Source: a virus
Strand: one strand, 5' to 3'
IMG/VR virus record: IMGVR_UViG_3300031787_000016
Coordinates: 62,001-126,000 of that record
DNA: 64,000 nucleotides
Positions within the stretch are counted from its first letter, which is position 1. Every line of letters begins with the position of its first letter. Position numbers and translations under genes: made by a program. The notes under the pieces were generated by a model. That model ran no database searches. It was not told the origin of the DNA and saw only the letters and a program-made list of their open reading frames with translations. Below, in pieces: positions 1,471-27,435 of the stretch.

Positions 1471-2379
1471 TTATTTGTTGAAGTATGGCTTAATATGCAA
1501 GTGCAAACCAAACAAACGCTTCAACTGTAAATCGATGTATGGCAGATTATTTTGGTAGATACCAGCGATTTCACTGATAACTGCAAAATGGCGCACAGGC
1601 TCGTTAGTGAGGTCTACAGGGTCAGGGTACAAGCCAAGGACTTCTTCGACATTGATACCAACAATAGAGTTAATAGGTAAAGCTTGAGCCGCATTCGCCG
1701 CCAAAGTTACCGAGCGAACACCAGTAGTAGCATTTTCAGCACCGATAGCGAGAATCGTACCTAAAGGAGTGAGATTGTCACCTAAGTAACCAGCTTCAGT
1801 AGTTTCAACAACAACTTGACCAGCAGCACCAGAGGTAGCGAAATACACATTATAGCTATCGTTAGCATAAATGGTAGCAACAGCAGTGGAACCAACTTGA
1901 GCGAAGGTAATACCAGCAGTCAATAGAGCAGCAGCGTTAGCAGTTGCGAAATCAGCAGCAGCACCAGCACCAGTCTGAGTAGCTCCTACAGTTGCAGAGT
2001 AAGTTACACCAGCAATTTTGGCAGTGATGATGTCGCCAGTTGCAAAAGTGCCAATAAACTTGACTTTAGCGTGGCAATGCTTAGCGTACAGTACATCACC
2101 AACCTTGAATTGAGCGCAAGGGCTTTTCAATTGAATTGTAGGAGAGTTAGTAGCAGTAGCAGCGTTTAGGCGAGTGCGAGGGAGAAAACGGGCAACTCTT
2201 TCGCCAGAAGTGCCAGTAGTAGCGATAAAAGAACCTTCAGGAATCGAAGCGACACCTAAAGAGTCGAGTTGGACATCAGCGCTCTTAATTTCAACACCAT
2301 CAATTGCAACTTTCTTAGCTGCGGCGTTAAAAATGATTGCCTTACCGTTACGAATAAATTTTTGAGTTGTTAAATACAT
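1471..2379 (-). CDS. Probable head decoration or capsid-stabilising protein
   Basis: A 302-residue protein rich in Ala, Thr, Val and Gly, with long beta-like stretches (such as AKVKFIGTFATGDIITAKIAG) and no membrane segment or enzyme motif that I can see. Phage heads often have a decoration gene next to the capsid gene, and this one lies 18 bases upstream of it and 15 bases downstream of the scaffold-like gene. It could instead be a tail-tube or adaptor protein. The call is from context and composition only. Confidence 0.45.
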   Translation of the reverse strand: MYLTTQKFIRNGKAIIFNAAAKKVAIDGVEIKSADVQLDSLGVASIPEGSFIATTGTSGERVARFLPRTRLNAATATNSPTIQLKSPCAQFKVGDVLYAKHCHAKVKFIGTFATGDIITAKIAGVTYSATVGATQTGAGAAADFATANAAALLTAGITFAQVGSTAVATIYANDSYNVYFATSGAAGQVVVETTEAGYLGDNLTPLGTILAIGAENATTGVRSVTLAANAAQALPINSIVGINVEEVLGLYPDPVDLTNEPVRHFAVISEIAGIYQNNLPYIDLQLKRLFGLHLHIKPYFNK

Positions 2380-2394
2380 TGTGTTTTTTGCTCC

Positions 2395-3282
2395 TTATAG
2401 TCCGAAATCCAGACCCATAGCCACAAGGTCGCCCTTAGCAGCTTCTTCGAGGCTAGCCGAGAAATTAGCAGTTGCAACTTCTTCAGCACTCACGGAGAAA
2501 TCGGTGAACTGAGTAACATTAGCAACATTACGAAGTAAGCTGTACGCAAACTCCGACATATTGAGTTGTTCTTGCAAATCACGCGCACCGTTAGTTTGAG
2601 CAATGCCAGTGAATTGTGCTACTCGTTGGCGAGGGTCAGAGAAGTTACCGATAAGAGCTTCCTTCATTGCAGGGGTGATAATACCGTCAACAACATCTTG
2701 GCTAATACGAGCGTTCAAATCAGTCAAAGCTTGAGAAAGATTAGCTTCAAATTGAGCTTTGGCAAAGTTTGCATGTAAAGCTTCATTTTCTGCACGTACT
2801 CGTTGAATTTCTTCAGCTACGCTACGGTTAAAGTTAGCTTGAATTGCGGGATTATAAGCAGCCGCATAGTCTGCGCCTTGTTGTGCCATTTCTGGGTCTA
2901 CGCCTCCTTCAGCGTCTTCGTTTCCTTCATATTGTGCTTCTAGAGCTTCTCGGTCAGCTTCTTCAACTCCGCTTGCAACTTCGATAATAGTTTGAATATC
3001 TTCGTCGTTAGCGTCAGGGAAAGCTCCAATCATTGCTTCGAGAATGTCAGCATCATCAACGATATTTTCACCGCTAATGTAGCCAGTTACGTCTTCTTCG
3101 CTCAAACCAGTAGCTTGAACGAGAGCTTGTACACCAGCATCAATGTCGCCTTCATATTGGGCTTCAATTAAGTCTAGAAGTAATTCGCCAAAAGCATTGG
3201 TAGGATTGAGTTCGGTCGCTCCTTCCATACCAGCGCCCTGAGCGCCTAAATCTTGTTCTTCATCCATTTTTATTATTTTCAT
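2395..3282 (-). CDS. Scaffold-like acidic protein
   Basis: A 295-residue, strongly acidic protein with an N-terminal half full of D and E and a helical C-terminal half (IQRVRAENEALHANFAKAQF and following) that looks like a coiled coil. This composition, and its place upstream of the decoration-like and capsid genes, fit a capsid scaffold. It carries several F-centred peptides (QANFNRS, HANFAKAQF, ATANFSASL) resembling those of the protease and internal proteins, which may be cleavage sites. The start could be residue 1 or the methionine at residue 6. Confidence 0.5.
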   Translation of the reverse strand: MKIIKMDEEQDLGAQGAGMEGATELNPTNAFGELLLDLIEAQYEGDIDAGVQALVQATGLSEEDVTGYISGENIVDDADILEAMIGAFPDANDEDIQTIIEVASGVEEADREALEAQYEGNEDAEGGVDPEMAQQGADYAAAYNPAIQANFNRSVAEEIQRVRAENEALHANFAKAQFEANLSQALTDLNARISQDVVDGIITPAMKEALIGNFSDPRQRVAQFTGIAQTNGARDLQEQLNMSEFAYSLLRNVANVTQFTDFSVSAEEVATANFSASLEEAAKGDLVAMGLDFGL

Positions 3283-3298
3283 TTTTTAGGATTAAAAC

Positions 3299-3334
3299 AA
3301 TAATGCCACACCGATTTCTCAGCATGGCATTATT
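3299..3334. promoter_or_regulatory. 10-bp perfect hairpin between divergent genes
   Basis: AATAATGCCA (3299-3308) and TGGCATTATT (3325-3334) pair perfectly around a 16-base loop. It lies between the starts of the scaffold-like gene (minus) and the glycine-zipper gene (plus), so it could be an operator or leader structure. A T run on the plus side could also make it a terminator. Confidence 0.5.
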
Positions 3335-3359
3335 TATGGGTTTTTGGCGTAAGGTATAA

Positions 3360-4490
3360 TTGATAAATACAAAAACAAATCTAATGAATAGAAGAAACTT
3401 TCTTAAAAATTTAGGTTCGGCTACATACGAAGCAACAAAAGCTCAAGTACCAACTACACCTAAAATTATACAAAAAGTTCGGGAGATAGACGACTTTGCT
3501 ACCAAAGCAAAAAAGTACGATAATTTCGCGGAAAATATAAACAGTGGTCTTGAAAAATCTGTTAGTAGGCGACAATTTCTTAAAAATTCTGCTAAACCTG
3601 CTGCTAGGGCTGCTATTAATACATTAGAGTCTGGAGCGAAAGGTGCTGCTTATCTAAGTGAAGGTAGTCTTATACCTAACCCACAAACAATGCAGCCTAT
3701 ATCCTCCTTGGCAGATAAGTTTCGTGAAGCTGTTAGATACATTAAATTTCAGAAAGGGGAAGATATGAAACATTTTGCGAATTTTGGTTTTGGTAATGAG
3801 GTGGCTAAAGGTGTTGGTAGAAATGCACTTTTAATCGGTGGTGGATTATTGGGTTACGGTGCAGGTAAAGCTCTAGCTGGCAACCCCCAAGAAACGCCTG
3901 AATACATAGGCTACAATCAGTCGCAAGAATCTTGGAACAAAGACCCACAAAATGATATCCTCAAAGAAAAAGCTTTAAGTGACTATGATAGATACATTAA
4001 TACACCAGAAGCCAGAAAAGAAAAGTATTTGACTCAAGGTGGGGCTTTAGTCGGAACTGGTGTAGGTCTTGTTTTAGGTAAAAAATATTTAAGGGGTAGA
4101 GCTAATTTTGGTATTGGTTCTACGATTGGTCTTGGGTTAGCTGGAGGTCTTGCAGGTAACTATATTGGTAATAAGATTGGACGTAAGCCTGAAATTGATA
4201 ACCAATTTAATGAGTTGAACACAAACTTTTGGAACCGACACGATAAAGCCCAAGAAAACCCTCAAGAACTTGATAACCTTTACAAAGAGTATACAGATAA
4301 AAATAATTCTTTAAGAGAACAAAATCAACCATACATTGATGAAGTCAATAAACGGTCTACAATTGGTCTAGTTGCTGGTACTGGACTTGGGCTACTTGCC
4401 GCTAATCGTAAAACGTTAGCTAATCCTGTCAAAGCTTATAAAAACTGGCAATGGCAACAAAACAGAAAAAACAGTATGCCAATTAGATAA
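3360..4490 (+). CDS. Glycine-zipper virion protein with MKHFANF peptide
   Basis: A 376-residue protein read from a TTG at 3360 preceded by AAGG; an ATG at 3384 is the other candidate. The N-terminal third contains two RR-[NQ]-F-L-K-N units (MNRRNFLKN and SRRQFLKN). The peptide MKHFANFGFG follows in mid-protein. The rest is glycine-rich zipper segments able to span or perturb membranes (LLIGGGLLGYGAGKALAG, and STIGLGLAGGLAGNYIGNK). The same MKHFA peptide begins the next gene, two bases downstream. Inferred role: an internal head protein, possibly injected or acting in membrane passage. It runs against the surrounding minus-strand genes. Confidence 0.5.
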   Translation: MINTKTNLMNRRNFLKNLGSATYEATKAQVPTTPKIIQKVREIDDFATKAKKYDNFAENINSGLEKSVSRRQFLKNSAKPAARAAINTLESGAKGAAYLSEGSLIPNPQTMQPISSLADKFREAVRYIKFQKGEDMKHFANFGFGNEVAKGVGRNALLIGGGLLGYGAGKALAGNPQETPEYIGYNQSQESWNKDPQNDILKEKALSDYDRYINTPEARKEKYLTQGGALVGTGVGLVLGKKYLRGRANFGIGSTIGLGLAGGLAGNYIGNKIGRKPEIDNQFNELNTNFWNRHDKAQENPQELDNLYKEYTDKNNSLREQNQPYIDEVNKRSTIGLVAGTGLGLLAANRKTLANPVKAYKNWQWQQNRKNSMPIR

Positions 4491-4491: not shown

Positions 4492-5904
4492 ATGAAACAC
4501 TTTGCAGACTTTGCTGACGAGAGACAGCCAATTACACTTCAAGAACATCAACAGCGAGTAGCAGACAAACTTGCCAATCAACGTGGTCTTATTGCATATC
4601 ATGGTCTTGGTAGTGGTAAAACTATAACTGGCATCAATGCGGCGGAAAAGTATGGTACAAATGGCACTGTAGTTGTTACTCCTGCAAAGCTTCAGGATAA
4701 TTTTCGCAAAGAGCTAAAAACATACGGTGCAAAAGGTAATTACGATATTTATTCATACGAAAAATTTCTTAGGGATAACCCCGACACTACTGACAAATTT
4801 CTTCTAATTGACGAAGCTCATAAACTCCGCAACAGCAACACAGCTAGAAGCCAAGGGTTATTAGCAGCCTCACGTAAAGCAAACAAAACATTATTATTAA
4901 GCGGAACCCCCATACAAAATAACGCTTCAGACATAGCTCCTTTAGTTAACATAGCTAGTGGAGAAGATATATTGCCGAGTGGAAGAGCCTTTACAGATAC
5001 CTATACAGAAAAGAAAACTACTAACCCTAATTTTATCGACCGCACATTCAAAGGAGCGCGACCTACTACTACAATTCAGCCTAAGAATCTAGAGGACTAC
5101 TACAATAAGTCTAAACAATACGTTGACTATTACTCACCAGAAGACAGGAGCAACTACCCAAGTGTAAATGAGCAGCGTGTAGATGTAGACCTAGACCCTA
5201 ATCAACTTAAATTATATAAACAAACCTACTCGCAACTACCATCTAAAGTTAGAAACATCTTGAACAGTGGTGGTCAAGAAGCTGCAACCGAAAAAGACGC
5301 ACAACGACTCAATACTTTTCTCAACTTAAATAGGCAAGCCTCTAATACTGCAAGAAAATATTATCGAGCAGGTGAAAAACAATACGACTCTAAAAGTTCA
5401 CGAATTTTACAAAATATTGCAGAAAACAAGTATCAAAAGAACCTTATATATTCCAACTACCTAGATAGCGGTCTTGAGGATGTTAAGCAGCGTCTAGGCT
5501 CTGACCCAAATGTTAAGTATGGGGAAATTCGTGGAGACATTAAACCAGAAGACCAGCGCCGAGTTTTGGACGACTACAATAATGACAGATTGAATACCTT
5601 GCTTGTATCTTCTGCTGGCGGTGAAGGATTAGACCTAAAAGGAACCAGAAGCGTTCACATTCTTGAGCCGCACTTCAACGATGAGAAAATTAATCAAGTA
5701 ATTGGTAGAGCAGCGAGGTATAAGTCTCACGCCAATTTGCCTGAAAAAGACCGTAACGTTCAAGTGTATAAGTATCAGTCCAAGTTCCCTAAAAATTGGT
5801 TTGGGCAGGAAGATAAGCGACCTACCGCAGACCAGTATTTATATAATTTATCGGAACGTAAGTCAGACTTGAATAACAAGTTCTTAGAAGGATTTAGGAA
5901 TTAG
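4492..5904 (+). CDS. SNF2-type superfamily 2 helicase with N-terminal MKHFADF peptide
   Basis: A compact 470-residue ATPase. Walker A is HGLGSGKT (about 37-44), the DEAH box is at 107-110 (LIDEAHKLRN), motif III is SGTPIQNN (137 onward), and motifs V and VI lie near the end (SSAGGEGLDLKG and QVIGRAARYKSH). This order is that of SNF2-like DNA translocases or helicases. It opens with MKHFADF, the short peptide shared with neighbouring virion proteins, which suggests that it may be packaged and act on DNA early in infection. An ordinary replication or recombination helicase would more likely sit with the replication genes of the right arm. Confidence 0.8.
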   Translation: MKHFADFADERQPITLQEHQQRVADKLANQRGLIAYHGLGSGKTITGINAAEKYGTNGTVVVTPAKLQDNFRKELKTYGAKGNYDIYSYEKFLRDNPDTTDKFLLIDEAHKLRNSNTARSQGLLAASRKANKTLLLSGTPIQNNASDIAPLVNIASGEDILPSGRAFTDTYTEKKTTNPNFIDRTFKGARPTTTIQPKNLEDYYNKSKQYVDYYSPEDRSNYPSVNEQRVDVDLDPNQLKLYKQTYSQLPSKVRNILNSGGQEAATEKDAQRLNTFLNLNRQASNTARKYYRAGEKQYDSKSSRILQNIAENKYQKNLIYSNYLDSGLEDVKQRLGSDPNVKYGEIRGDIKPEDQRRVLDDYNNDRLNTLLVSSAGGEGLDLKGTRSVHILEPHFNDEKINQVIGRAARYKSHANLPEKDRNVQVYKYQSKFPKNWFGQEDKRPTADQYLYNLSERKSDLNNKFLEGFRN

Positions 5905-5907: not shown

Positions 5908-6053
5908 TTATCTGCCAAGTTTTCTACTAAGTGCGAGACTCCCTAACAGACCAACTCCAGCCCCAATCCAGCAAGAGGTACTTTGAGCCTATTTAGGAAA
6001 GAGTTATTATCAGCTTGGGAAAGTGGGGATATAAAGCTTGCGAAGTGTTTCAT
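5908..6053 (-). pseudogene. Frame-interrupted mini gene: MKHFASF peptide plus glycine-zipper tail
   Basis: From the ATG at 6053 the minus strand reads MKHFASFISPLSQADNNSF and continues to a stop at 5943, giving 36 residues. A different frame continues from about there as IGAGVGLLGSLALSRKLGR to a stop at 5908. Together these look like the head and tail of one short protein, MKHFA peptide then glycine zipper, broken by a frameshift. It may be a decayed copy of the neighbouring family, or a real frameshifted gene. Confidence 0.45.
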
Positions 6054-6057: not shown

Positions 6058-7080
6058 TTATGTTGTCTTATTTTCAAGATTATCTTTTTTGCTTAGTAAT
6101 TTTGCACCAAGCAGCCCAGTACCAGCCACACCAACTCCAGTAGCAATTCTAGCAGCAGTATCGCTATCCAAAGCGTTAGCAGTGCCATGCAGACCTTCTT
6201 GAGCATAGCTGAGCATCTTTGCCTTCTGGTTGTAATTAGCAGCCTTACGGGTCACCCATCGAGCCGCTACATTTTCTCCGCCAACACGCTTAGATGCTTT
6301 TCTTACTGCATTTGCCAAAGGTTTAGTGACAACTCTACCAACATCCTCAACAATACCAAACTCCGCTTGCAGTTTCTGACGTTTTATAAAATTGGCAGAC
6401 TTACGGATGGTTCGCGACATACCCAACCAACCTTTGAGTATCTGCGTATCTTGTCTTGCTCTAGTTTTGATTTTGTCTTGCAATTCTCTAGACCTAGCTT
6501 CCCATTTCTCGCGCAATGAAATGGTTTCGGGTATAGGTTGACCAGTTTCAACAGCTTTTTGGCGCAAACCAATGATACGTTCTCTTTCTGCTTCTCTAGG
6601 GTCTAGTATGTTGCGAACAGCTTTGCGAACACCTTTAGACTTTTGTTGCTGCCTCTCTACTCTCTTTAAGGCTCCAGCACGTTCTTCTGGTGTTTTGGAC
6701 GGTGGTTGAGGTACATCGCGTTTAATAGGTGTTGGTTCAGGTGTTGCGACTGTTGGTGGTGTGGGGGATTTCAGTTCCTCTACAAACTCCTTATCCATAC
6801 TAACTGCTGGTTTACCAGTTACTTTTGATACATAAGGCTTTTGAAGTTCTTTTTCAAGCAAACGACCTCGAATAGTGTTTACGCCTAATCCAGCAGCAGC
6901 ACCTATCCCAGAACCAGCAGCCGCATTACTAAGTACTTTACCCAGACGCTCGTTTGCGGTGGTAGATTGACGCTCTTCTTCAGACTCGGCAATACCAGTG
7001 CCGCGAAGCAAACCTGCCGCAGCACCTACACCTGCGCCTAACTTGACTGCGTTCAATGCAAAGTTTGCAGATTTACGCAT
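6058..7080 (-). CDS. Glycine-zipper virion protein with KSANF peptides
   Basis: A 340-residue protein starting MRKSANFALNAVK. It then has a glycine-zipper module broken by an acidic turn (GTGIAESEEERQST), a proline-rich and then highly basic middle, a second copy of the peptide (IRKSANFIKRQK), and a hydrophobic glycine-rich C-terminal helix (ATGVGVAGTGLLGAKLL). The module is also present in the adjacent 696-residue protein and in the kinase-like protein at 24751-25854. Inferred role: internal or injected virion protein processed at the SANF sites. It overlaps the upstream gene by 8 bases. Confidence 0.55.
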   Translation of the reverse strand: MRKSANFALNAVKLGAGVGAAAGLLRGTGIAESEEERQSTTANERLGKVLSNAAAGSGIGAAAGLGVNTIRGRLLEKELQKPYVSKVTGKPAVSMDKEFVEELKSPTPPTVATPEPTPIKRDVPQPPSKTPEERAGALKRVERQQQKSKGVRKAVRNILDPREAERERIIGLRQKAVETGQPIPETISLREKWEARSRELQDKIKTRARQDTQILKGWLGMSRTIRKSANFIKRQKLQAEFGIVEDVGRVVTKPLANAVRKASKRVGGENVAARWVTRKAANYNQKAKMLSYAQEGLHGTANALDSDTAARIATGVGVAGTGLLGAKLLSKKDNLENKTT

Positions 7081-9163
7081 TCTCTTCCTCTTTCTTTTTC
7101 TTTTTCAGTAGAGAATTGGCTAACAGTAAACCACCACCTAAAGCAACGCCAGCACCAACAACACCTTTTAATGGTAATTTGGTTTTGGGATTGGCGGATT
7201 TTGTGGGGTCAGGGGCAGGACTAACTACCATAGCAGAGGAGTTATTAAAACTAGCAGATTTGCGAATAGTTTTAGAAAGCTCAATTCTTCCAGTTTTAGC
7301 ATAATTGAATCGTTCTCTGCCTAAATCTACAACACCACCAGCATGAGCGCCAAGGCTACCACCAACACCAGCAAGACCAACTACCTTAGCAGCGCGAGTA
7401 ATCAAACCAGTCTTTTCACGCTCTTCCTGAGACTCCCCAAGACCAGAACCTTCAATAGCTCCTGCTGTAGCCCCAGCGACACGACCAATGTTAGCAGCGT
7501 TCACAGCATCCCAGTCAGGATTTTTTACACGTTCATGTACGTTTTTTGCTATATTTTTACCTTTACTGAGAAGGCGAGTTGTACCATCCAAAAGACCAAA
7601 ACTAGCACTATAATTACTACTAGGGGGTAAAGCTTTCTTTGCAAACTTCTTACGGATAGCATCAGACGCACTTCCAGCAGCATTGCCGATTCCAGCACCT
7701 GCAACTCTACCCAAACCGCCATAACCAACTACTTTAGCTACTCTAGAAGCAACACCAGTAGCAGCTTTCTCCTCCTCAGACTCACCTACTCCAGCACCTC
7801 TAGCAATTCCAGCTAATAAGCCGATACGTGCGCCAAGATTTGCTGCATTAAACTCAGCAGACTTACGGATAGTTTTATTGAAGTACTTGCCTACGGGTTT
7901 ACCAGATTCAATCATTGCATTGATTTCCTTAACACCCATACTTGCAGGTAGGCGAGGCTCTCTCAACTTCTTTTTCTGCATCTTGCCGCGCAAGGTTTTC
8001 TCAAGGCTAACAACTCCAGTATTGTCTTGAGGGATGTAGGTGCTACCATGTTGAATCAAACGCTGAATAGTTGCAGGGTCTTGGAACTCAGCCACTGCTT
8101 TTTCATAAGAATTTAGAAAAGTAGCATAGATTGAGTCAGGTTTGCGGTTATATTTAGCCATTTCTTGTTGTAATTTGTTTTGTCTTTCTTTAATTATCGC
8201 ATCTCTGCGGTCTAGTACTGCTTGTCGTCTGATTTCGATTTCAGTTAGTTTTTTCTCTTCGTCTTTTTTACGTTGATAATCGTTGTACGCCAAAGTACCG
8301 ACTGCAATGGGGGCGACAGTAAGACCCGCAAGAGTTCCTGTAATTTGGTCTTCAGTCATCCCCTTAGCAATAAGAGGTTCAGCTACTGAACGACGAAAAG
8401 CATTACGTGCTGGTTTTACATATTTTTGGTAAGCATCCCCTATAAAATTAACTGCTGGAGTGACTAAAGGTACATTAGGCTTACCTTCACTGCCGACATA
8501 GTTTTCTCTTAGTTTTTCGCGCCGCAACCTTTCAGCTTCAGCCTTTTTTTCTGCATCAAATCTAGCTTTATCTGCTCCAGTAGGTTTAGATTCTTTTGGA
8601 AATTCTTCTTCAAAAGTTTGTTGAGCAGCAGTTCTTTTAGTCCCAGCAACTTGACCAGCTAATCTAGCTTTTTCAAGTTTTTCTTCTTGTGTAAGAGGTT
8701 TTTCTCGTTTAGTTTTAGGTTCTGTTCTAGTAGTCACAGTACCATCAAGATTTACAATAGGTCGGTCAACAGGCACTTCTCTTCTTTCAGAGCTTATTTT
8801 GTATTTAGCTCTGGTTACAGTTTCAGGCTTAGAGGTTGTGCCAGTACCTTTATCTTTCAAGTAAGTTTTTAGATACTCTTTTTTCTGTAAGGCATCAATC
8901 TGAGCTTGATTACGCTCTTGCATTACAGCTTTAGGGTTGACAGTTACACTTCCTTTGCTGGAAACTGCTCTGTTAGTAGGTGCAGGAGTAACCAAAGGCT
9001 TATCAGTATTAAACTCACGTTTGTTAGTGGGAATGTTGATTCGTCGAGCTAAGCCTAACCCTCTATCAGCAGCTCTATCTTTTACTGTAGATGGTCTAAC
9101 AGACTCTCCTGTTACAAATCTACTGCCTTTAATAGATTTAATAAATTCTGCATTATCTAACAT
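7073..9163 (-). CDS. Large internal virion protein with repeated KSA-x-F / glycine-zipper modules
   Basis: A 696-residue protein. The first half is basic, proline-rich and repetitive, followed by a short helix near 275-295. The second half holds two full modules of the form glycine zipper, GxGESxEEExxxT turn, RxAKVVGxxGxG zipper, with IRKSAEF and IRKSASF peptides before or after them and NYSASFG between. It ends with a hydrophobic helix and a lysine-rich tail. This is the largest member of the local family and is translated just after the protease gene, with which it overlaps by 7 bases. A role in the head interior or in passing DNA through membranes is inferred only. Confidence 0.55.
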   Translation of the reverse strand: MLDNAEFIKSIKGSRFVTGESVRPSTVKDRAADRGLGLARRINIPTNKREFNTDKPLVTPAPTNRAVSSKGSVTVNPKAVMQERNQAQIDALQKKEYLKTYLKDKGTGTTSKPETVTRAKYKISSERREVPVDRPIVNLDGTVTTRTEPKTKREKPLTQEEKLEKARLAGQVAGTKRTAAQQTFEEEFPKESKPTGADKARFDAEKKAEAERLRREKLRENYVGSEGKPNVPLVTPAVNFIGDAYQKYVKPARNAFRRSVAEPLIAKGMTEDQITGTLAGLTVAPIAVGTLAYNDYQRKKDEEKKLTEIEIRRQAVLDRRDAIIKERQNKLQQEMAKYNRKPDSIYATFLNSYEKAVAEFQDPATIQRLIQHGSTYIPQDNTGVVSLEKTLRGKMQKKKLREPRLPASMGVKEINAMIESGKPVGKYFNKTIRKSAEFNAANLGARIGLLAGIARGAGVGESEEEKAATGVASRVAKVVGYGGLGRVAGAGIGNAAGSASDAIRKKFAKKALPPSSNYSASFGLLDGTTRLLSKGKNIAKNVHERVKNPDWDAVNAANIGRVAGATAGAIEGSGLGESQEEREKTGLITRAAKVVGLAGVGGSLGAHAGGVVDLGRERFNYAKTGRIELSKTIRKSASFNNSSAMVVSPAPDPTKSANPKTKLPLKGVVGAGVALGGGLLLANSLLKKKKKEEENA

Positions 9164-10176
9164 TTGGCTCCGCTTCCTCTTACATACTTCTTGGTTGTCC
9201 TTATCGACAAGTTGAACTGAGCCAATCTATTGTTGCCACGTTTATAGGTAGTCTGTTGCTGCAACTGAGGAATTGTCATGCCACTTTCAGCGCCGCCTTG
9301 TAGTTGTGCCTGAGTCTGCGCTGCTTGGTCTTGTGGGGTTTGTACACCAGCTTGTGCTTGTTGATTCATTTGTTGCATCAACTGAGTCAGACCGAGTAGT
9401 TCGATAATTTTGACGCTGAATCCATTTAACTGAGAGTAAATCAGTTGCAACAAAACTTCAGGGCTATCAATGTTAATCGCATCGTTATCATAGGCATTCT
9501 TTAGTAGAAGCCACAGTTTCTGGCAAATTTCGTTGTATTCGTCTTGAAGGTCGTCAATCGCTTGGTCATTAGCATCAAGCTCGTCCCAAGTCACCGCGTT
9601 GCCGCTATCAGGGATGCCTGAGAAATTAGCGGTCATTGCTTTGCTCACTTTCTTATGAAACAAGCCCATGTTAGGGATAGCAGGAATAGGTACAAGAGAC
9701 AATTCCATAATTCGGTGTTCGTTAGGGTCGAGGTTAAGCCCCATGCTAACCGACTTAACTCCAGATTTAAGTGCTTCGACTCCTTTGGCTGCTGCAACTT
9801 TGACCCCTGATAAAAACATTCCAAGCTTTCCTACAAGGTGCTTGCTATTTGGATTAGGCAAATCTGCCTCGGTAATAACTTTAGTAAAAGCTCTTCCATT
9901 AATGCTTCCAATGGTATTTGGAATATCTTTTTTGTGGTCAGCGCAAACAGGTACAACTGTGCCGCTATCGATGGCTCGGTTGGTATGCTCAACGATTGTA
10001 TTGAGGCGTTCGGGACTAAATTCGTGTTCGACATCAGTGCTATCGGTAAATTTGCCTTCTGTGGCTACAAGGGCTGTATACTCTTCCTTAAGTGGACTGC
10101 CAGACACCAACACCTGCCCCAACTCGAAGTTGGCTGATGCTGGAGCTTTAAAATATGCGATGTTGGTCTTTTTCAT
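9157..10176 (-). CDS. Prohead maturation protease
   Basis: A 339-residue protein with the pattern of herpesvirus-like prohead proteases: a conserved His in VPVCADHKKDIPNTIGSI (H81), a likely nucleophile Ser in GVKSVSMGLN (S142 or S144), and the strand ELSLVPIPAIP (about 158-168). The C-terminal part is Gln-rich and may act as scaffold. Candidate cleavage peptides occur in the protein itself (ASANFEL near 13-19, TANFSG near 182-187) and resemble the F-rich peptides in the other virion proteins. It would mature the head by trimming scaffold and internal proteins. The nucleophile assignment is tentative. Confidence 0.7.
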   Translation of the reverse strand: MKKTNIAYFKAPASANFELGQVLVSGSPLKEEYTALVATEGKFTDSTDVEHEFSPERLNTIVEHTNRAIDSGTVVPVCADHKKDIPNTIGSINGRAFTKVITEADLPNPNSKHLVGKLGMFLSGVKVAAAKGVEALKSGVKSVSMGLNLDPNEHRIMELSLVPIPAIPNMGLFHKKVSKAMTANFSGIPDSGNAVTWDELDANDQAIDDLQDEYNEICQKLWLLLKNAYDNDAINIDSPEVLLQLIYSQLNGFSVKIIELLGLTQLMQQMNQQAQAGVQTPQDQAAQTQAQLQGGAESGMTIPQLQQQTTYKRGNNRLAQFNLSIRTTKKYVRGSGAKC

Positions 10177-11416: not shown

Positions 11417-11656
11417 ATGGACAATAAATCACTCTTCAATCGGCAAGTAGGGGAAAAACTACGCAGTCTACGCAAAGCCAAGAATAAGTCTCAGGCTAGT
11501 GTTGGAGCAGATTTTTCATTCAGTCAGGATGTTGTTAGCGAAATCGAACGTGGCAAGCGACCTCTAGAGGCGTATGAGTTAGCGGCTTTTAGTAGTTATT
11601 ATGAAAAACCAATTACGTTTTTCTTCATGAACTCGACTTTACCAACTAAAAATTAG
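11417..11656 (+). CDS. Cro/CI-type helix-turn-helix regulator
   Basis: A 79-residue XRE-family protein: VGEKLRSLRKAKNKSQASVG, then SFSQDVVSEIERGKRPLEAYE forms the helix-turn-helix, followed by LAAFSSYYEKPITFFF. It stands alone on the plus strand, divergent from the holin-endolysin pair with a 40-base gap, so it may repress the lysis operon. A role in lysogeny is not supported, as no integrase is visible here. Confidence 0.8.
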   Translation: MDNKSLFNRQVGEKLRSLRKAKNKSQASVGADFSFSQDVVSEIERGKRPLEAYELAAFSSYYEKPITFFFMNSTLPTKN

Positions 11657-11748
11657 CCCCCAATCATGTGTGCATAATCTAAAAATTTCTTTGCTCCATA
11701 GCCTCCCGCCGCACCAAGACCAGCAGAAGAAGTAAAGCAACCCCAATA
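11653..11748 (-). pseudogene. Out-of-frame glycine-zipper tail after the MuF gene
   Basis: Downstream of the MuF stop codon another minus-strand frame reads CFTSSAGLGAAGGYGAKKF to a stop at 11653. It resembles the tail of the broken mini gene at 5908-6053. It has no start codon of its own, so it may be a decayed family member or a frameshifted extension of the MuF protein. Confidence 0.35.
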
Positions 11749-18354: not shown

Positions 18355-19327
18355 TAGAAAATGACTCCATATCCCGATTTTTGTGTAAAATAACTACTTT
18401 TATCTTAACATCATCCTTATATATCAGTAAGGTGTAAGTATTCTCTGGTTTGCTTATCTTAGGCAAGTACCCGTTCTCAAAGCTTATATCTGCATCTGCT
18501 TTAAAACTTACAATACCCGCAAAATTGCTTAGGTTGAGCGTGAAAAACTTGAGGTGGTTGTTATTTATAAGTAGTTGTATGTCCAGAACTTTGACTCCAT
18601 CGGAGCAGATTATATTGGCTTCGGAGTGCTGAATTGTGTCGATAACAAGACTTGAAAGTGGTTGTGCAGACGATATATTTTGGCAGTTATATCGTAAATT
18701 ACGGATAGTTTTTCCGTTGCAGTTAAGGTTCCCACCTAGTACTGGAGCTTTATCCCAATCGATAGTAAGAGGTAAAATTCGGTAGGTATTACCGAAACCA
18801 CCGACATTTGTAGGTGCGAAGTAAGATACAAAAACACCATAAGGAACAACTGCGTAGCTGACATCATCAAATCTGCCAAGAGCTGAGGCTTCAGGTGCAT
18901 ACCCCCAAACTCCACCGTTATATGTCAGTGCATATTTGTTGGGAGCTACTGTATCGACTACATCACTAAGCTCCTTCAATTGATATTCTTTTCTGTCTAC
19001 ATTTACTATATTTCCCAACGAAGTAACTGCAAGATAGTCTCCAACACCGCCTATATTAGTCCCACCGATATCTTGAAGATATATGTTTGGTACGACAGTA
19101 GTTAATTGACCTTTATAGTATCTGAGGATAGAGCCGTCAGAAAAAGAAGAGTACTCAATGAAGTCCTTAAGATTGCGTTTACTATTCCCTACAATTGCAA
19201 TATTGTTTTTGTATGTTTTTGTGGCGATATTTTTAGATACGAAACCTAAAAGTAAAGTACCTACTGGTATCAGATTGTAGTCGGCTGCACTCTCATCTGT
19301 AGTGTGGGGAAATATGGTGCTACTCAT
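18344..19327 (-). CDS. Tail fibre-associated structural protein
   Basis: A 327-residue beta-rich protein with the phrase LKELSDVVDTVAPNKYALTY followed by NGGVWGYAPE. That is a single copy of the LSDV...L-x-Y...W motif repeated in the adjacent 614-residue fibre protein. It touches that gene end to start, at base 19327. It is probably a distal fibre or collar piece. No enzymatic motif is seen. Confidence 0.5.
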   Translation of the reverse strand: MSSTIFPHTTDESAADYNLIPVGTLLLGFVSKNIATKTYKNNIAIVGNSKRNLKDFIEYSSFSDGSILRYYKGQLTTVVPNIYLQDIGGTNIGGVGDYLAVTSLGNIVNVDRKEYQLKELSDVVDTVAPNKYALTYNGGVWGYAPEASALGRFDDVSYAVVPYGVFVSYFAPTNVGGFGNTYRILPLTIDWDKAPVLGGNLNCNGKTIRNLRYNCQNISSAQPLSSLVIDTIQHSEANIICSDGVKVLDIQLLINNNHLKFFTLNLSNFAGIVSFKADADISFENGYLPKISKPENTYTLLIYKDDVKIKVVILHKNRDMESFSNGA

Positions 19328-21171
19328 TAGGAGAATATCTGATTACCAATACTGCGATGAAAGTAATTGAAGGACTGTGAGTGAACCACATCCTCAAGAC
19401 CGCCCAAACGACCAAACCTCATAGCTGGAGGTTGGTAGACTGCATCGGTGTATCGTCCCTTACCCACTGTCAAACGAACCGAATCAAGCCTACCAATCAT
19501 ACTTATAGTGGCAGAAGAGATAGCCAAATTAGTTAAGCCAGAATCAATTACAAGACCCTCTTTTTCTGTTAGTAACTGACCATCGCAATGTACCTTGATG
19601 CTCGTTCCAACTCGCGTGACAGAAAAGAATATGTAACGACTGTTTTGGTATTTAAAAAGTCGATTGGCGTTGTCGAATGTGTAGGTGTTAGTTCCAATTG
19701 TTACTGTAAGTGTGAGGTTCTGGGTACTGGTAGTTATCTGTCCTGTGTAGCTGATACTGAAATTAGCGGAACTGAAGTAGTCGTGGGTAAGTGTTGTTGC
19801 CGATTCGTAAAAGGCTGTGTCTTGGTATTGGAGATAGAACTCATAGGTAAAATCCCCAGTTACATTGATGGTCGCGGCTGGTGTGATGGTAATAGTGTCG
19901 ATTACATTATCGAACTCAGCAATTTGGTTGGGTATGCCAAACGTAGTGATGTCGGTGTCTTGTTGGGTTACTCCAAGTACAGTCACTGGAATATTGGCTG
20001 TACTTTTGTCTTCGTACCAAAGTTTACTGCGCCATGTCTGTGCCTCAAAGTCTAGCAGAAGTTTGACATACTTGAAATAATCGTCGTAGAGCTTAGGGGC
20101 TGCTAGAAGTTGGGCTTGATTGTCTTGGATATCGTAGCGCCACGCAGGTATGCCCCCTTCGCCTAGAGCAGCTATGTTGAGTGCAGTTGCGGTGACATAA
20201 GTAGTTATGACCCCGTTTATATTTTGAACAAGTACTGTGATGATATCGGTCTTACCAGCGCCAGACAACTTGATAGCTTTGCCATCTTCATATTTGACGT
20301 TTGTAAGTCCCCCTATTAAGATTTGCCCTGTGTTTTGGCGTATCTCAATGAGCATTACAGCCGCTTGATTGGTCGCTGGTGAGATTTGGGGTAACAAGAT
20401 ACACTGAGTCTGAGTAGCAAGGGAAACTCCCGTTACAATCCAATAATCCGCAGTAGCATAAGGCAGATTAACAGTGGAAGCGCTAGCCACCACTGAACCA
20501 ACATTAGTGAAAGAATTATAAAGATAATTACCATTAGCGTTGAGGCTTGCTCCTAGAGTGGGGTTGGGGTCACGCACAATTTGAAGGTCTTGGTTGCTCC
20601 ATACTGTTCCAGCAGCATCAAGCGAAAGTATCTGATGTCTGTGAGGGTCGAGTTCAGTTCCTGCTGTTGGTGTTAGTTCAACGTCGCTAAGCTCGTTTAC
20701 TAGATTAAGTCGGGTGCGAGGTTTCCATCTCCCTGCGGTCGAGTCCCAATACAACGTCTGATTATTTGTTAGACCTGTCAAATCTACGTCTGTAAGCTGC
20801 GACAAAGCATAATCTGGGCTTGCATTCACATACGCCTCTTTCAGAGCGTCGTAGCGCAAATACTGCCCATTTGTGGGATTGTTTATCTGAAGGTCGCTCA
20901 GTCGATTGAGATTTCCAATTTGTGAGGCTGCTGTAAACTCGTTCCCTTGCTTAACAAAGAAATCACCTTCACGCGCATTTGTTACGTTGACATCTTGAAG
21001 TTCAGTAAACTTTTGGACACCTTTGCCAATTTCCAGTACCTTGCCAGTGAAGTCTTTGGTGTATAGGACTGCGGCTTCGTCTTTGATTGCTAAGACAAGT
21101 TCACCAACAGCAATTTCGTGAGGTGCTGGTAGCGAGTCATTGTTTAGCGTGTGCTTAAGTATGGTTGGCAC
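19327..21171 (-). CDS. Tail fibre protein with LSD-V repeats and C-terminal LamG-like domain
   Basis: A 614-residue protein. The N-terminal third has four copies of a short fibre repeat (ELQDVNVTNAREGDFFVKQG, LSDLQINNPTNGQYLRYD, LTDVDLTGLTNNQTLYWD, LSDVELTPTAGTELDPHRHQ). The C-terminal 200 residues look like a LamG/concanavalin fold (FTYEFYLQYQDTAFYES, IFFSVTRVGTSIKVHCDGQL). Such proteins form trimeric fibres that recognise the host surface. Confidence 0.6.
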   Translation of the reverse strand: MPTILKHTLNNDSLPAPHEIAVGELVLAIKDEAAVLYTKDFTGKVLEIGKGVQKFTELQDVNVTNAREGDFFVKQGNEFTAASQIGNLNRLSDLQINNPTNGQYLRYDALKEAYVNASPDYALSQLTDVDLTGLTNNQTLYWDSTAGRWKPRTRLNLVNELSDVELTPTAGTELDPHRHQILSLDAAGTVWSNQDLQIVRDPNPTLGASLNANGNYLYNSFTNVGSVVASASTVNLPYATADYWIVTGVSLATQTQCILLPQISPATNQAAVMLIEIRQNTGQILIGGLTNVKYEDGKAIKLSGAGKTDIITVLVQNINGVITTYVTATALNIAALGEGGIPAWRYDIQDNQAQLLAAPKLYDDYFKYVKLLLDFEAQTWRSKLWYEDKSTANIPVTVLGVTQQDTDITTFGIPNQIAEFDNVIDTITITPAATINVTGDFTYEFYLQYQDTAFYESATTLTHDYFSSANFSISYTGQITTSTQNLTLTVTIGTNTYTFDNANRLFKYQNSRYIFFSVTRVGTSIKVHCDGQLLTEKEGLVIDSGLTNLAISSATISMIGRLDSVRLTVGKGRYTDAVYQPPAMRFGRLGGLEDVVHSQSFNYFHRSIGNQIFS

Positions 21172-21533: not shown

Positions 21534-23648
21534 TTAGAATTGAATAGAACTGATGTCTTCGCAGCTAGGTATGTTGTCGGTAAATATGAAAAGGTCGTTA
21601 CTTTCATTGTAGCTTGAGTCGTATCTTTGTTCATATTTCGCCCAGTACTCATCTTCACTAAGTTTGTGGTCACTATCGCCAAATAACATGATGGTGCTGT
21701 TGCTGGTTTTTTGACTGAGGTAGCCTATAGCATAACTTATATCGTCTACCCATTCGTTCGTAGAAAATAATGGGAAGCCAACAAGTTCGTTGATAGCATG
21801 GTCTGGGTCGTAAGTTTCATCGAGGGTGTAGTCAGTTGAGTGTGGTTTGTAGAAATATAGTTGACCATTTTTGATGTAAGGTACTGCCGCACCAAATCGC
21901 TTTTCTTTATCGGCTTGAGCCTTACCTCCCCACTCACTAGGTCTGAAAGGTACGATGTTTGGGAACTCAGCAGCTAGTAGCCGCATCACTGCTTCTCCAT
22001 TAGCTTTTGCCTCTACACCAATTTCAGCTTCAGGATACTTCTTGGCTAGTTTTTTGATAGCAGCCATTTGCCCCACAATATCCAGCTTAGCGCGAATACC
22101 ATCGATGACATAATAGCTGTCTTCTTTTCTGCCCACTACAGCGCCCAGATTCCACGATGTAGACGCTTCTGATGCCGCAAAGGTCAAATCCCACATGATG
22201 AGCATTGAATCCATCTTAGTTGGCTTCTGAGACACAATGCGAATATCTTTTTCATCAAGCGTGATACCCTTACCACCACCTGAAGGGTCTTGTTGAAATA
22301 ATGTCTTGCGTCTGATTGGGTTGATTGTGTTGAGATAGCTAAGAGGTAAGCGCTTTTTGTCCATAAGCTCACCTTCAGTCTTGCGTGGGTCATTCCAGCG
22401 CTCACCTAATGGAGAAAAATAGGTTTTGCGCTTGGCGAACTCGGCAGGTATACAAAGCTCGAAGAAGCCGTCCTCACCTTTATATTTCTCAAACAGATGT
22501 GCAATCAAGTCATCATCACCAAGACGCTGACAAATAGCCATCTTGACATCAGTGTTGACATCATTACTACGACCGAATAGCTGGTCAGTTACCCAGTTGT
22601 TGCGCTCACGACGAATACGCTCATTTTGGTACATCGTTTCATCGATAATGTCATCGATAAGAAAGACAGTGCCTCCATTACCGATAATTCCAGTGTCAGG
22701 TGAGGAGATGTTGATATCACCGCTAGCTGTGTTGCTGATTTTCTTTTTGGTTGATTGGTCTTCTGCTAAACGAAAAGAATATGTTGGACTATCGAGCTTA
22801 CAGTACCTATCCCCATATCTAGGGTTGTTAATGATGTTTCGACTTTTAATTAAGTTGGTAGTGCAAAGGTCAAGCTTGTGTGAGGACAGAAAAAAACGTT
22901 CTTCAGGGGTAGTTATCCAACGAAAAGCTGGTGTGCAAATAGATGCGATGCTTGTCTTGCTGTTGTGGCTGACTATACCGTTAGCTAGAATGAAATTGTC
23001 CCATTTATTCACAGAAATGTCGTAAACTCTGTGAGTACCAATGTATGCCAGTGAGATAATTTTGGAGTGATACTCTTCAGATTCACTCTCGTTGCCTTTG
23101 CGCCTACGGTCATGCATTGAGATTTTATCGCCCAAACTAAGTTCACTTACATGACGATATCCTCGGTCAGTAAAGAACCTGTGTTCCATAGTGGCTGTAA
23201 CTGAATATCCAGTGTCAAGTCCAATACGATATGTCTCTTGGTACTTATTATCTAAGTTAGCTGTTACAGTACCTTCTACTTTTATCTTTCGTTTGATATC
23301 AAATGAGGCAACTTTGTCGCCAACTTGTATTGCTTCGATTGGTTTAACAGAGCCGTCCCACATCCTTATTTCTGTGCCACGTTTTAGGCAACTACGAGGA
23401 GAGACAGTGATTGCCAGTTTTCTTATTTGTCTTTTGAGCGCGGCTTCAATATGCTCAGCAATAATATCGATGTGCCAATTACTTACTAGCGGAGTACCTT
23501 CATATAAATCCCAAGCCCAAGGTACAAAATGGCGAAGTTTTTTGCTTGCTTTTTCTGCCAACACATCGTCGAGCGCGTCACTCATCTTGCGAAGTTCGGC
23601 TTCGCTCATGTCGTTGGAATTTTTCTGTGTCGTTCGAGAGATTGCCAT
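21534..23648 (-). CDS. terL: Terminase large subunit interrupted by a mini-intein
   Basis: A 704-residue precursor; 561 residues after splicing. The extein has the ATPase motor: a Walker A loop rebuilt by splicing (SPRS joined to SKTSIAS), Walker B FLIDDIIDE, and the RNase H-like nuclease part with MWDLTFAAS, GVEAKANGEAVMRLL and a late acidic pair in WVDDISYAIGY. It packages DNA into the prohead and cuts the concatemer. The intein is listed separately. It starts 52 bases from the divergent gene at 23701. Confidence 0.85.
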   Translation of the reverse strand: MAISRTTQKNSNDMSEAELRKMSDALDDVLAEKASKKLRHFVPWAWDLYEGTPLVSNWHIDIIAEHIEAALKRQIRKLAITVSPRSCLKRGTEIRMWDGSVKPIEAIQVGDKVASFDIKRKIKVEGTVTANLDNKYQETYRIGLDTGYSVTATMEHRFFTDRGYRHVSELSLGDKISMHDRRRKGNESESEEYHSKIISLAYIGTHRVYDISVNKWDNFILANGIVSHNSKTSIASICTPAFRWITTPEERFFLSSHKLDLCTTNLIKSRNIINNPRYGDRYCKLDSPTYSFRLAEDQSTKKKISNTASGDINISSPDTGIIGNGGTVFLIDDIIDETMYQNERIRRERNNWVTDQLFGRSNDVNTDVKMAICQRLGDDDLIAHLFEKYKGEDGFFELCIPAEFAKRKTYFSPLGERWNDPRKTEGELMDKKRLPLSYLNTINPIRRKTLFQQDPSGGGKGITLDEKDIRIVSQKPTKMDSMLIMWDLTFAASEASTSWNLGAVVGRKEDSYYVIDGIRAKLDIVGQMAAIKKLAKKYPEAEIGVEAKANGEAVMRLLAAEFPNIVPFRPSEWGGKAQADKEKRFGAAVPYIKNGQLYFYKPHSTDYTLDETYDPDHAINELVGFPLFSTNEWVDDISYAIGYLSQKTSNSTIMLFGDSDHKLSEDEYWAKYEQRYDSSYNESNDLFIFTDNIPSCEDISSIQF
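22962..23390 (-). other. Mini-intein inside the terminase Walker A loop
   Basis: Residues 87-229 of the terminase precursor. It starts with Cys (CLKRGTEIRMWDGSVKPIEA), has the block B motif TATMEHRF (T-x-x-H), and ends with VYDISVNKWDNFILANGIV then S-H-N before a Ser that starts the second extein. At 143 residues it lacks a homing endonuclease domain. It sits exactly in the nucleotide-binding loop, so the motor can work only after splicing. Confidence 0.9.
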
Positions 23649-24030: not shown

Positions 24031-24754
24031 TAACATTGAACAAAAGCTGCAATCACTACGCAATTTGAACAGTGACCAGCCCGAAATGCAAAAAATAACT
24101 ATCCATAAACTCAGCAAGACAAGCTGGGTTAATTGGACGGATATCAAACGTGCATATATTCTTGGTAAGCGTATTGAGGAGTTTGACGAGGAGACTGGGC
24201 ATACGCGAATTTGGTCTGAGAGCTACAACTTAGAGGAACTGGCGCGGGAGTTTGGAGTTGGTGTTAGTCAGTTAACCAAAAAATCTGCTATCGAAGGTTG
24301 GGGCGGATTGCGCGATAGCTACTTGGCGCGAGTACAGGAGGAAGCACTTGGTACTGAGCTTGGCTATTTCACTAATGAGGAGAGCGAGACTGAGGCAAAT
24401 TCGCTGGCTATTATTCGTAAGGGGATGAAGCTGATTAACTTGGGGCTAGAGCAAGAGTATGGTGACTTACTTGAGGCTGTGGACGCTGATGGAGATGTGG
24501 ATTTGCGTGAATATAGTAAGGTTAACTTGAAGGCGCTGACCGAAGGAATCAAAGGATTGAAGATGCTGCATGAGATGCATGGTAAGGTGATGGAGCAAGC
24601 ACCCAAAACTAATCAGGAGCTGCTTGACCAATTGAATCGTAGTAAGACGGTAGAAAGGTTGAAGAATCCTAAAGAACGTGAGAAATTGCAAAAGGAGCTA
24701 CAAAAGAAATTACAACTCCTTAGTCAGATAGAGGAGGACGATGATGAGGATTAA
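24020..24754 (+). CDS. Terminase small subunit-like protein
   Basis: A 244-residue protein with a helix-turn-helix of the type found in small terminases: YNLEELAREFGVGVSQLTKK followed by SAIEGWGGLRDSYL. A helical oligomerisation region and a very charged tail (QIEEDDDED) follow. It would recognise the phage packaging site and load the large subunit. It stands divergent from the terminase gene, with one gene between. The segment DADGDVDLREY looks like a calcium-binding loop but is probably chance. Confidence 0.6.
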   Translation: MSNNNIEQKLQSLRNLNSDQPEMQKITIHKLSKTSWVNWTDIKRAYILGKRIEEFDEETGHTRIWSESYNLEELAREFGVGVSQLTKKSAIEGWGGLRDSYLARVQEEALGTELGYFTNEESETEANSLAIIRKGMKLINLGLEQEYGDLLEAVDADGDVDLREYSKVNLKALTEGIKGLKMLHEMHGKVMEQAPKTNQELLDQLNRSKTVERLKNPKEREKLQKELQKKLQLLSQIEEDDDED

Positions 24755-25854
24755 TCTATTTCAATTGGGCGAGGTGGTTGTCCAGATTGTCTTGCAGAAT
24801 TGGCATAGGGGTCGGGAGTAGCTCCACGTTTATATTTCATTGCAGCTACACCAGCGCCAGTACCAATACCACGTTCATCTGCAAAGTCGTTACGTCGTTT
24901 AGTACCATAATCTTTCACTTTTTGATTTAGGTCTTGATATCCTTTAGCTGCTACTTGTTTGCCTTGCTCAGCTTTCTCTCTAATAAATCTGGAGTTACCA
25001 CCAATAGCAGTACCCAGTCCAGTACCGAGCGCATTACCAGCCAAACCATAACCTAACGTCTTGGCGGCTCTATCCCAACCGTTAGTATTGGCTCTTTCTT
25101 CTTCTGTCTCAAAAACTCCAGCGCCCTTAGCTACACCTAATCCTGTACCTATAGCACTACCTATTTGACCCCCTCTTAATGCTCCTCCAATACGAGTAGC
25201 TGCTGCATCGATGGCTGGGCTTACTGTAAATGGTGCGAAATTTGCATCCTGCGAACCGAAGTGAGCGAAATGTTGCATCTGTTTATGTTGCGAAAAGTTT
25301 ATTCTGCTATTATAGCCTGTCATAAATGGCTTACCCAACCAGTGACGAGAGTATGGATTTTTCATCTCGCCTGTATCATATTCAACTTCAATAGGTCTTA
25401 CTGAAGCATTATCCACCAATTTTAGTTGTTTTTTATTTGGGTTTGGTCTAACTACATTGCCTTCATGTATATCCATGTGACCCATACCTTTCTCGTATAG
25501 GCGATTTTGCATACGCCCTACTTGACTACCAATTTTATATTGTTCCTTTGGTGAGATTCCTTCTAGTTTGTCAGGTAATGGCTTACCAGCATAGTCTTGC
25601 GTGTAGGAGGTCATGTTCCCTCGTTCACGGTAGTTTTGCACTGGTGGAACTAACCCTGTCGTAGAGGCTGCTTTACTTGCGTTCTCATATTCTTTCACGC
25701 TGGCGCGTCTGGCTGCTGCTTTATAGTTGGGATTGTCAGGAAGTATGTTGTCGATGCGTACCTTGTTTGTGGCAGGGAAGTGCATTACACGCTTGTCTGA
25801 TGTGAGGAGAAGTGCTTTGGCGTTACGGATACGAGCGAATGAGGAAGTGTTCAT
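24751..25854 (-). CDS. Kinase-like protein with internal MQHFAHF peptide and glycine-zipper tail
   Basis: A 367-residue protein. Residues 118-150 hold what looks like a kinase catalytic loop, GHMDIHEGNVV (126-133), followed by LKLVDNAS (145-151), as in small-molecule or atypical protein kinases. A glycine-rich loop is not clear. The peptide MQHFAHFGSQDANF follows at 193-206, then a glycine-zipper module with the turn FETEEERANT, as in the proteins at 6058-9163. Processing at the peptide would split the kinase from the zipper part. Inferred role: packaged effector. Substrate unknown. Confidence 0.5.
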   Translation of the reverse strand: MNTSSFARIRNAKALLLTSDKRVMHFPATNKVRIDNILPDNPNYKAAARRASVKEYENASKAASTTGLVPPVQNYRERGNMTSYTQDYAGKPLPDKLEGISPKEQYKIGSQVGRMQNRLYEKGMGHMDIHEGNVVRPNPNKKQLKLVDNASVRPIEVEYDTGEMKNPYSRHWLGKPFMTGYNSRINFSQHKQMQHFAHFGSQDANFAPFTVSPAIDAAATRIGGALRGGQIGSAIGTGLGVAKGAGVFETEEERANTNGWDRAAKTLGYGLAGNALGTGLGTAIGGNSRFIREKAEQGKQVAAKGYQDLNQKVKDYGTKRRNDFADERGIGTGAGVAAMKYKRGATPDPYANSARQSGQPPRPIEID

Positions 25855-25858: not shown

Positions 25859-26215
25859 TTAGAATACTTTGTAGAGGATATCGGGATTCAAAGATAGAAC
25901 TTTTCGGGCTTCCTTGTTTAAGGGTGTGGGGTCGCTGGTACATATATACAATTTAGTATTTTTACCATAGTGGGTGGCGTAAGTTCTCAACTGACCCACT
26001 GCATTTTTGATTGAATTGCTGTCTCCATAACGTTTACACTCGATAATGTAGTTGGTAATTTCCCCGTTTGGTTTGTACTCTTTGACCAAAATATCGATAC
26101 GACCAGTTGGCACGACCACTTCTTGTTGGACAACAAATCCGCTTGCTCTCATGAAACTCGCCACTTTCTCTCTGGTAACTTTTTCGAGGGGGACTTTAGT
26201 TTTTTTACTTGACAT
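25859..26215 (-). CDS. PD-(D/E)XK-like nuclease, paralogue A
   Basis: About 118 residues from the ATG at 26215, chosen because the paralogue at 27088-27435 begins at the same point of the alignment; an upstream ATG at 26281 would add 22. The core is RIDILVKEYKPNGEITNYII then ECKRYGDSNSIKNAVGQL, giving the D...E-x-K active-site pattern of restriction-like nucleases. It lies 4 bases from the kinase-like gene, within the group of suspected packaged proteins. Substrate unknown. Confidence 0.6.
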   Translation of the reverse strand: MSSKKTKVPLEKVTREKVASFMRASGFVVQQEVVVPTGRIDILVKEYKPNGEITNYIIECKRYGDSNSIKNAVGQLRTYATHYGKNTKLYICTSDPTPLNKEARKVLSLNPDILYKVF

Positions 26216-26317
26216 TTTGACCAAGTAGTGTGGCTTGCTTTTGTCGTGTGAATGACTTACGAGCGCTGTTGCTGAAGTCACTCACTACGTTCGTTGGCAG
26301 AAAAGAAGTAAAGTGCA

Positions 26318-27087: not shown

Positions 27088-27435
27088 CTAGAATACCTTA
27101 TAGAGGATGTCGGGGTTTGCTTGCATTATTCTGAGTGATTCCTGAGACAGAGGTTTTTTACAACTGGTGCAAAAATATAATTGCACTTGAGATTTAGGGA
27201 AGTGCTTAGCGTAGCAGATGAGTTGTCCTATACTATTTTTGATGGCTGTGCTGTCATTTTTTCTTTTACATTCAATTAGGTGATAAATGACTTCACCGCT
27301 TGGTTTATATTCTTTGAGAAGGATATCTATAAAACCGTAGGGGGTCTTGTATTCCATCTGCACAACGTAACCTTGAGATTTAAAGAAATTCGCAACTTTA
27401 TTTCTCGTTTCTTTTTCTAATGGGAGCTTATTCAC
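27088..27435 (-). CDS. PD-(D/E)XK-like nuclease, paralogue B
   Basis: A 115-residue protein clearly related to the gene at 25859-26215: LPLEKETRNKVANFF, FIDILLKEYKPSGE, LIECKRKNDSTAIKNSIGQL, and the identical ending NPDILYKVF. The D and E-x-K active-site residues are kept. The pair suggests a local duplication around the MQHFANF gene. Two paralogues with intact active sites may differ in target. Confidence 0.6.
   Translation of the reverse strand: MNKLPLEKETRNKVANFFKSQGYVVQMEYKTPYGFIDILLKEYKPSGEVIYHLIECKRKNDSTAIKNSIGQLICYAKHFPKSQVQLYFCTSCKKPLSQESLRIMQANPDILYKVF

Follow-up and report, generated by a model that had tools for sequence, protein, structure and literature searches.

A Gene Cluster Between the Scaffold and Head Protease

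The window analyzed in this study is a stretch of 64,000 nucleotides that spans bases 62001 to 126000 of a virus record 147,778 bases long. It encodes capsid, protease, and scaffold-like proteins with 87 to 96% identity to those of PA-SR01 and Pam2, two cultured Pseudanabaena siphoviruses with long tails of ~300 nm (PMC10286775, PMC9382816), and the region is also covered by further virus records. Herein, the genome carrying the window is called G000, and related virus records or contigs are labeled G004, G006, G009, L004, L093, and L125. All the relatives compared are close, with proteases that are 91 to 97% identical, and scans of viral contigs for distant relatives by protease, capsid, and tag returned the same close group only. 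In the annotated stretches that were compared, the terminase relatives S-CBS2 and S-CRES3 showed no gene set like this one.

Three head genes on the minus strand frame the region of interest. These encode the major capsid protein (202 to 1452; phrog_29), an acidic scaffold-like protein (2395 to 3282), and the head maturation protease (9157 to 10176; phrog_976, E 6.9e-5). The PA-SR01 orthologue of the protease has been assigned to Mu-like prophage I protein (PF10123 by HHpred, 4.5E-18) (PMC10286775). A direct hmmer search of the genome with PF10123 gave no match, and the controls gave none either. The protease gene is located near the scaffold and capsid genes, as is expected for a head protease, and its predicted structure has a pLDDT of 31.

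Between the scaffold and protease genes are two genes on the plus strand, coding for a 376-aa protein (3360 to 4490) and an SNF2-type helicase (4492 to 5904), and two on the minus strand, coding for proteins of 340 aa (6058 to 7080) and 696 aa (7073 to 9163). The 696-aa gene has mosaic relatives and, like the 340-aa gene, resembles a polyprotein gene. We consider the 340-aa and 696-aa zipper genes to be tied to the virion on the grounds of context, because in all the relatives examined they are located between the genes for the scaffold-like protein and the protease, and because a short Ala-x-Phe (A-x-F) motif is common to the zipper proteins, the scaffold-like protein, and the protease.

Several other features of the window and its relatives are worth recording. 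The gene for the terminase large subunit (21534 to 23648, minus strand) carries a ~140-residue insert at about residues 87 to 220 (CLKRGTEI...ILANGIVSHN) that is absent in PA-SR01 and that has the look of a mini-intein. The Pam2 gene at 2064 to 3905 of ON014754.1, which is the positional orthologue of 19327 to 21171 in the window, was deposited as "botulinum neurotoxin type B," a doubtful label because the gene sits among tail and head genes. Contig L004 (11,060 bases) encodes a 696-aa protein 100% identical to that of the window alongside a capsid protein with only 78% identity, which points to recent recombination or chimeric assembly. Finally, a tmRNA gene is located at 56998 to 57324 (plus strand), for which ARAGORN reports the tag VNNIVSFSRKATPVAA; in Rfam, permuted tmRNA scores above the cutoff and cyanobacterial tmRNA just below.

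A Repeated Glycine-Zipper Module

The original prediction counted two copies of a glycine-zipper module in the 696-aa protein and single copies in the 340-aa protein and in a kinase-like protein encoded farther along. This proved correct, and the window contains four homologous copies, all on the minus strand. Two are in the 696-aa protein (SEEE module 1, 7658 to 7849, residues 439 to 502; SQEE module 2, 7325 to 7504, residues 554 to 613), one is in the 340-aa protein (SEEER, 6874 to 7056, residues 9 to 69), and one is in the kinase-like protein (TEEER, 25003 to 25176, residues 227 to 284), as assigned by HMM and alignment. Pairwise BLASTP gave E-values of 4e-18 to 3e-11 (from small comparisons), and the iterated HMM gave domain E-values of 1e-19 to 3e-24.

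The module is a domain of ~60 residues in which an invariant GxxxGxxxGxxxGxG is followed by E...T....R..K and then by a second zipper. The glycines of the first zipper fall at i, i+4, i+8, i+12, and i+14, and the acidic turn that precedes the T, R, and K residues varies among ESEEE, ETEEQ, and ESDAE. Fifteen aligned modules have in common G9, G13, G17, G21, G23, E26, T34, R39, K42, G50, and G54, and a profile made from the four copies in the window identifies 29 copies in the phage group, relatives included. Each copy has an Ala-x-Phe (or Val-x-Phe) sequence 0 to 37 residues upstream, a feature that had escaped the original prediction.

Two further sites had been proposed to carry fragments of the same pattern. 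The first, at 5908 to 6053 (minus strand), does begin with the tag MKHFASF (6033 to 6053), and its zipper-like tail IGAGVGLLGSLALSRKLGR sits in a different frame. Therefore, we read it as what is left of a tagged zipper gene after a frameshift; it looks like a decayed gene, and at that position PA-SR01 encodes a tagged zipper protein that is intact. The second, at 11653 to 11748, contains just one short open frame, with GLGAAGGYGAKK but neither tag nor acidic turn, and was rejected as a module copy.

The A-x-F (or V-x-F) sites split the 696-aa protein into units of 7, 233, 109, 11, 78, 84, 117, and 57 aa. The 78-aa unit (QDPATIQ...RKSAEF, 7850 to 8083, minus strand) is the best conserved, with 71 to 81% identity in relatives, and ends with the AEF site (FNKTIRKSAEF, 7850 to 7858) located ahead of module 1. 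On the same strand, an ASF site (SSNYSASF) is present at 7598 to 7606, and another (LSKTIRKSASF, 7247 to 7255) precedes the hydrophobic 57-aa unit at the C-terminus. The 340-aa protein starts with MRKSANF and has inner sites ANF (6388 to 6396) and AEF (6358 to 6366).

A-x-F Sites Are Enriched and Conserved

What was observed directly is the motif together with its statistics, where it lies, and how well it is conserved. Among short motifs, HFAxF shows the strongest enrichment in the proteome of G000, and M.HFA tops the G006 list. Occurrences of HF[AV]xF number 8 in G000 (0.15 expected) and 9 in G006 (0.17 expected). The genes running from capsid to protease, a set defined purely by location, contain 22 occurrences of A[NESDQ]F in G000 compared to 2.8 expected, and this pattern is enriched in all eight contigs (17 to 22 occurrences versus 2.7 to 3.8 expected). 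In the head and cargo set, no enrichment was seen for A[NESDQ]L, A[NESDQ]Y, G.F, S.F, or L.F.

Conservation singles out the same two residues. Across homologous cargo proteins (457 site comparisons), identity at the sites is 0.88 for A, 0.54 for x, and 0.89 for F, compared to values of 0.53, 0.51, and 0.54, respectively, when these residues occur elsewhere in the proteins. Some site sets were gathered with the motif itself (by Phe), and their logo gives context and not proof. Five A-x-F sites are present in the scaffold-like protein (2830 to 2838, 2764 to 2772, 2749 to 2757, 2611 to 2619, and 2461 to 2469), where A and F are kept while the middle residue swaps between N and Q. Three are in the protease at residues 15 to 17, 183 to 185, and 319 to 321 (10126 to 10134, 9622 to 9630, and 9214 to 9222), flanking the conserved core and the C-terminal region; among homologues, indels occur directly before two of these motifs, and A and F are invariant. 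The capsid protein has a single site (NLAEF, 1244 to 1252) near its C-terminus.

A scan of viruses for MQHFA[ND]F returned 27 stretches, about 20 of which are in this phage group; those outside the group are mostly short frames or are on contigs with hardly any or no homologues. In the literature searched, we found no mention of the HFANF tag.

The Tag Opens Many Unrelated Proteins

A short tag ending in Ala-x-Phe (IRKSANF, M[QK]HFA[ND]F) precedes the zipper module and about ten unrelated proteins. Specifically, M[QK]HFA[NDSH]F opens the SNF2-type helicase (MKHFADF, 4492 to 4512, plus strand), proteins of 248 and 313 aa, and small basic proteins encoded elsewhere in the genome. The 376-aa protein consists of a ~130-aa domain, MKHFANF (3765 to 3785), a zipper unit, RANF (ANF, 4101 to 4109), and another zipper unit. 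Its ~130-aa domain also includes two Tat-like motifs, NRRNFLKN and SRRQFLKN (within 3360 to 3600, plus strand), both of which are present in PA-SR01 too.

Three further tagged proteins of the window are encoded on the minus strand. The kinase-like protein (GHMDIHEGN; 24751 to 25854), whose match to the Bud32 type is weak (E 0.013), has an internal MQHFAHF (25258 to 25278) and an ANF (25237 to 25245). The 248-aa protein is basic (26318 to 27064; MQHFANF, 27044 to 27064), and the 313-aa frame (27709 to 28650) has MQHFADF at 28600 to 28620, which is its likelier start. These last two proteins are without firm family, and thus the label of enzyme cargo leans mainly on the helicase. The HTHP...PSPRD sequence of the 313-aa frame resembles a JAB/JAMM motif, with weak profile support. 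Tagged proteins with HTHP...S..D, namely that of the window and one encoded at L093:18979-19926, resemble JAB/JAMM metalloproteases, again with weak profile support (E 0.12 for a relative). Between the tagged genes are two untagged paralogues that are 56% identical (25859 to 26281 and 27088 to 27435, minus strand), one of which has a weak match to NucS endonuclease.

The cargo is mostly basic (its larger units have charges of +5 to +19), and the first 151 residues of the scaffold-like protein carry a charge of -34. Basic cargo and an acidic scaffold would be expected for proteins held in a prohead core. Two tagged JAMM-like proteins of relatives, however, are about neutral in charge, a point against the processing and loading proposal set out below.

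Gene Rearrangements Are Located at A-x-F Sites

The stretch from scaffold to protease is a mosaic in which the scaffold and protease are 78 to 98% identical between genomes and the cargo genes have been rearranged. A-x-F sites are where genes have fused or split and where one insertion is found. Of 49 gene starts that correspond to an internal position of a longer homologue, 23 proved to be near A-x-F, compared to 8.1 expected and a maximum of 17 in 1000 draws. For example, PA-SR01 divides its homologue of the 696-aa protein immediately before NYSASF, where a separate gene begins (MPPSNYSASF). Likewise, the 130-aa domain is joined directly to the helicase via MEHFANF in PA-SR01, whereas in G000 the order is 130-aa domain, MKHFANF, two zipper units, stop, and MKHFADF-helicase, such that the insertion has a tag on each side. 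Another gene stops at HF[AV]NF in G000, G009, and Pam2, and its G004 version continues into a zipper module.

A Candidate Signal for Prohead Processing and Loading

We consider it probable that A-x-F is a prohead processing and loading signal and that the zipper genes encode polyproteins that are cleaved and packaged along with the other tagged cargo. The head, as it assembles, would recruit proteins that carry the motif, whether it leads the protein (MQHFANF), separates units (IRKSANF), or closes the C-terminus (HFANF or KHFKNF); recruitment would probably depend on binding to the acidic scaffold or to the protease. Next, the Mu-I-like protease would cut after Phe, with Ala at P3, any residue at P2, and Phe at P1, and would also trim itself and break up the scaffold. 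In this manner, the 696-aa and 340-aa polyproteins would yield small basic internal proteins, several of which would be glycine-zipper hairpins, and the SNF2 helicase, the kinase-like protein, and other enzymes would be tagged cargo of the same head. All of this cargo would exit the head with the DNA, after which the zipper units may join the host membrane or DNA. That the proteins are cut, packaged, and ejected, and what the zippers finally do, are our inferences.

One alternative is that the tag serves solely as a docking peptide for scaffold, portal, or shell, is never cut, and leaves the long genes whole. A ~200-aa gene adjoining the protease ends with SFKHFK[ND]F-stop in seven genomes (L125:19531-20154 and six orthologues), although G000 is without this version, and such Phe-ending tags cannot act as cleavage leaders. 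Therefore, we have added a docking role to the processing proposal. The N-terminal capsid signal of P1 DarB, which is longer than 9 and shorter than 30 residues (PMC9024508), likewise favors docking. However, A-x-F recurs within the scaffold and flanks the protease core on either side, an arrangement that fits self-processing and hardly fits docking, and the pattern of fixed A and F with free x is like that of the A-X-E sites of SPN3US. Docking without cleavage is therefore unlikely in our judgment.

In the original prediction, the zippers can be membrane hairpins that may build a passage for DNA or protein across the cyanobacterial wall, and a second alternative is that this role is the main reason for the repeats. 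Its appeal lies in the perfect GxxxG spacing and polar turn, in weak matches of 11 of 15 copies to Gly-zipper_Omp (PF13488; best E 8.7e-6), in an AlphaFold2 model of one zipper unit that has a helix-loop-helix form, albeit with low confidence (pLDDT 54), and in two clearly hydrophobic segments located elsewhere in the 696-aa protein. However, on the 19-residue Kyte-Doolittle scale the units with zipper modules peak at 0.95 to 1.43, under the usual transmembrane cutoff of 1.6, and only the two other segments, the last unit (1.82) and residues near 274 to 290 (1.60), reach this value. A channel also leaves A-x-F, the tagged helicase, and the scaffold sites unexplained, and the long tails of the relatives make an extra DNA channel less needed than in short-tailed phages. 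We regard the channel as quite improbable as a substitute for processing and loading, with which it is compatible as a later step; after ejection the zippers may act on a membrane or, equally, bind DNA.

Least probable is that the tag is only a recombination seam, a shared coding sequence for swapping gene pieces that has no role in the protein: the fusions, fissions, and insertion located at the tag would suit this idea, but its codons vary freely (His CAC/CAT 20/15; first Phe TTC/TTT 17/18) while the amino acids are kept, and therefore selection acts on the protein, the peptide is what is kept, and a DNA-level explanation was rejected.

Beyond processing and loading, we lean modestly toward a broader proposal, in which one A-x-F peptide would serve as a phage-wide address code that governs both the loading and the release of injected proteins, the set of which would change. 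Any gene that gains the tag would become head cargo, the zipper polyproteins would be interchangeable units separated by the protease, and the protease would have an aromatic P1 specificity. If these proposals are true, the injected proteins of a cyanophage could be read from sequence alone, which normally needs proteomics, and a second P3-x-P1 head-protease code would stand next to A-X-E. Moreover, the phage would be an example of the use of multi-unit polyproteins within a head, and the tag would provide a short candidate signal with which to load proteins into a siphovirus. Because Pam2 and PA-SR01 are cultured, the A-x-F idea is directly testable.

Comparison with Known Systems

The internal proteins of T4 have an N-terminal signal of ~10 aa that is cut off (PMC7697877). 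As with these proteins and Alt, which are loaded into the prohead and reported to be cleaved by the head protease (PMC7697877, PMC7411985), a short N-terminal peptide is shared here by unrelated proteins. Unlike in T4, the motif ends with A-x-F, also occurs between units and at C-termini, and can delimit several units per gene.

A second parallel is offered by SPN3US gp245, which cleaves after A-X-E at P3-P2-P1 (PMC10052503). Both systems have Ala at P3, a free P2, and a fixed P1, as judged here from the conservation pattern alone, and both have sites within the protease and the internal proteins, as well as propeptides that contain several motifs (PMC10052503). In contrast, the third conserved residue here is Phe rather than Glu, the phage is a siphovirus with a Mu-I-like protease, and multi-unit chains replace long single propeptides.

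Phage P1 provides a precedent for the helicase. DarB is a large protein that, like the tagged protein described herein, has an SNF2-type helicase; it is packaged by an N-terminal signal and is believed to enter the cell, and DarA is cleaved by the head protease (PMC9024508, PMC12810830, PMC5512222). Unlike the Dar proteins, among which no common N-terminal consensus was found, many proteins here carry one tag. Podovirus ejectosomes (T7 gp14-16, P22 gp7/16/20) form a channel on account of a short tail, unlike the tails of these relatives, and no PHROG ejection-protein match was found. The polyvalent proteins described by Iyer et al. (2017) also join unrelated enzymatic domains in a polyprotein-like manner for delivery with phage DNA (PMC5512222). 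However, their release is credited to embedded peptidase domains, whereas here it would be due to a motif that recurs at each junction and a separate head protease. T4 internal proteins and P1 DarB are the closest working counterparts of the tagged cargo, and polyvalent proteins the closest concept.
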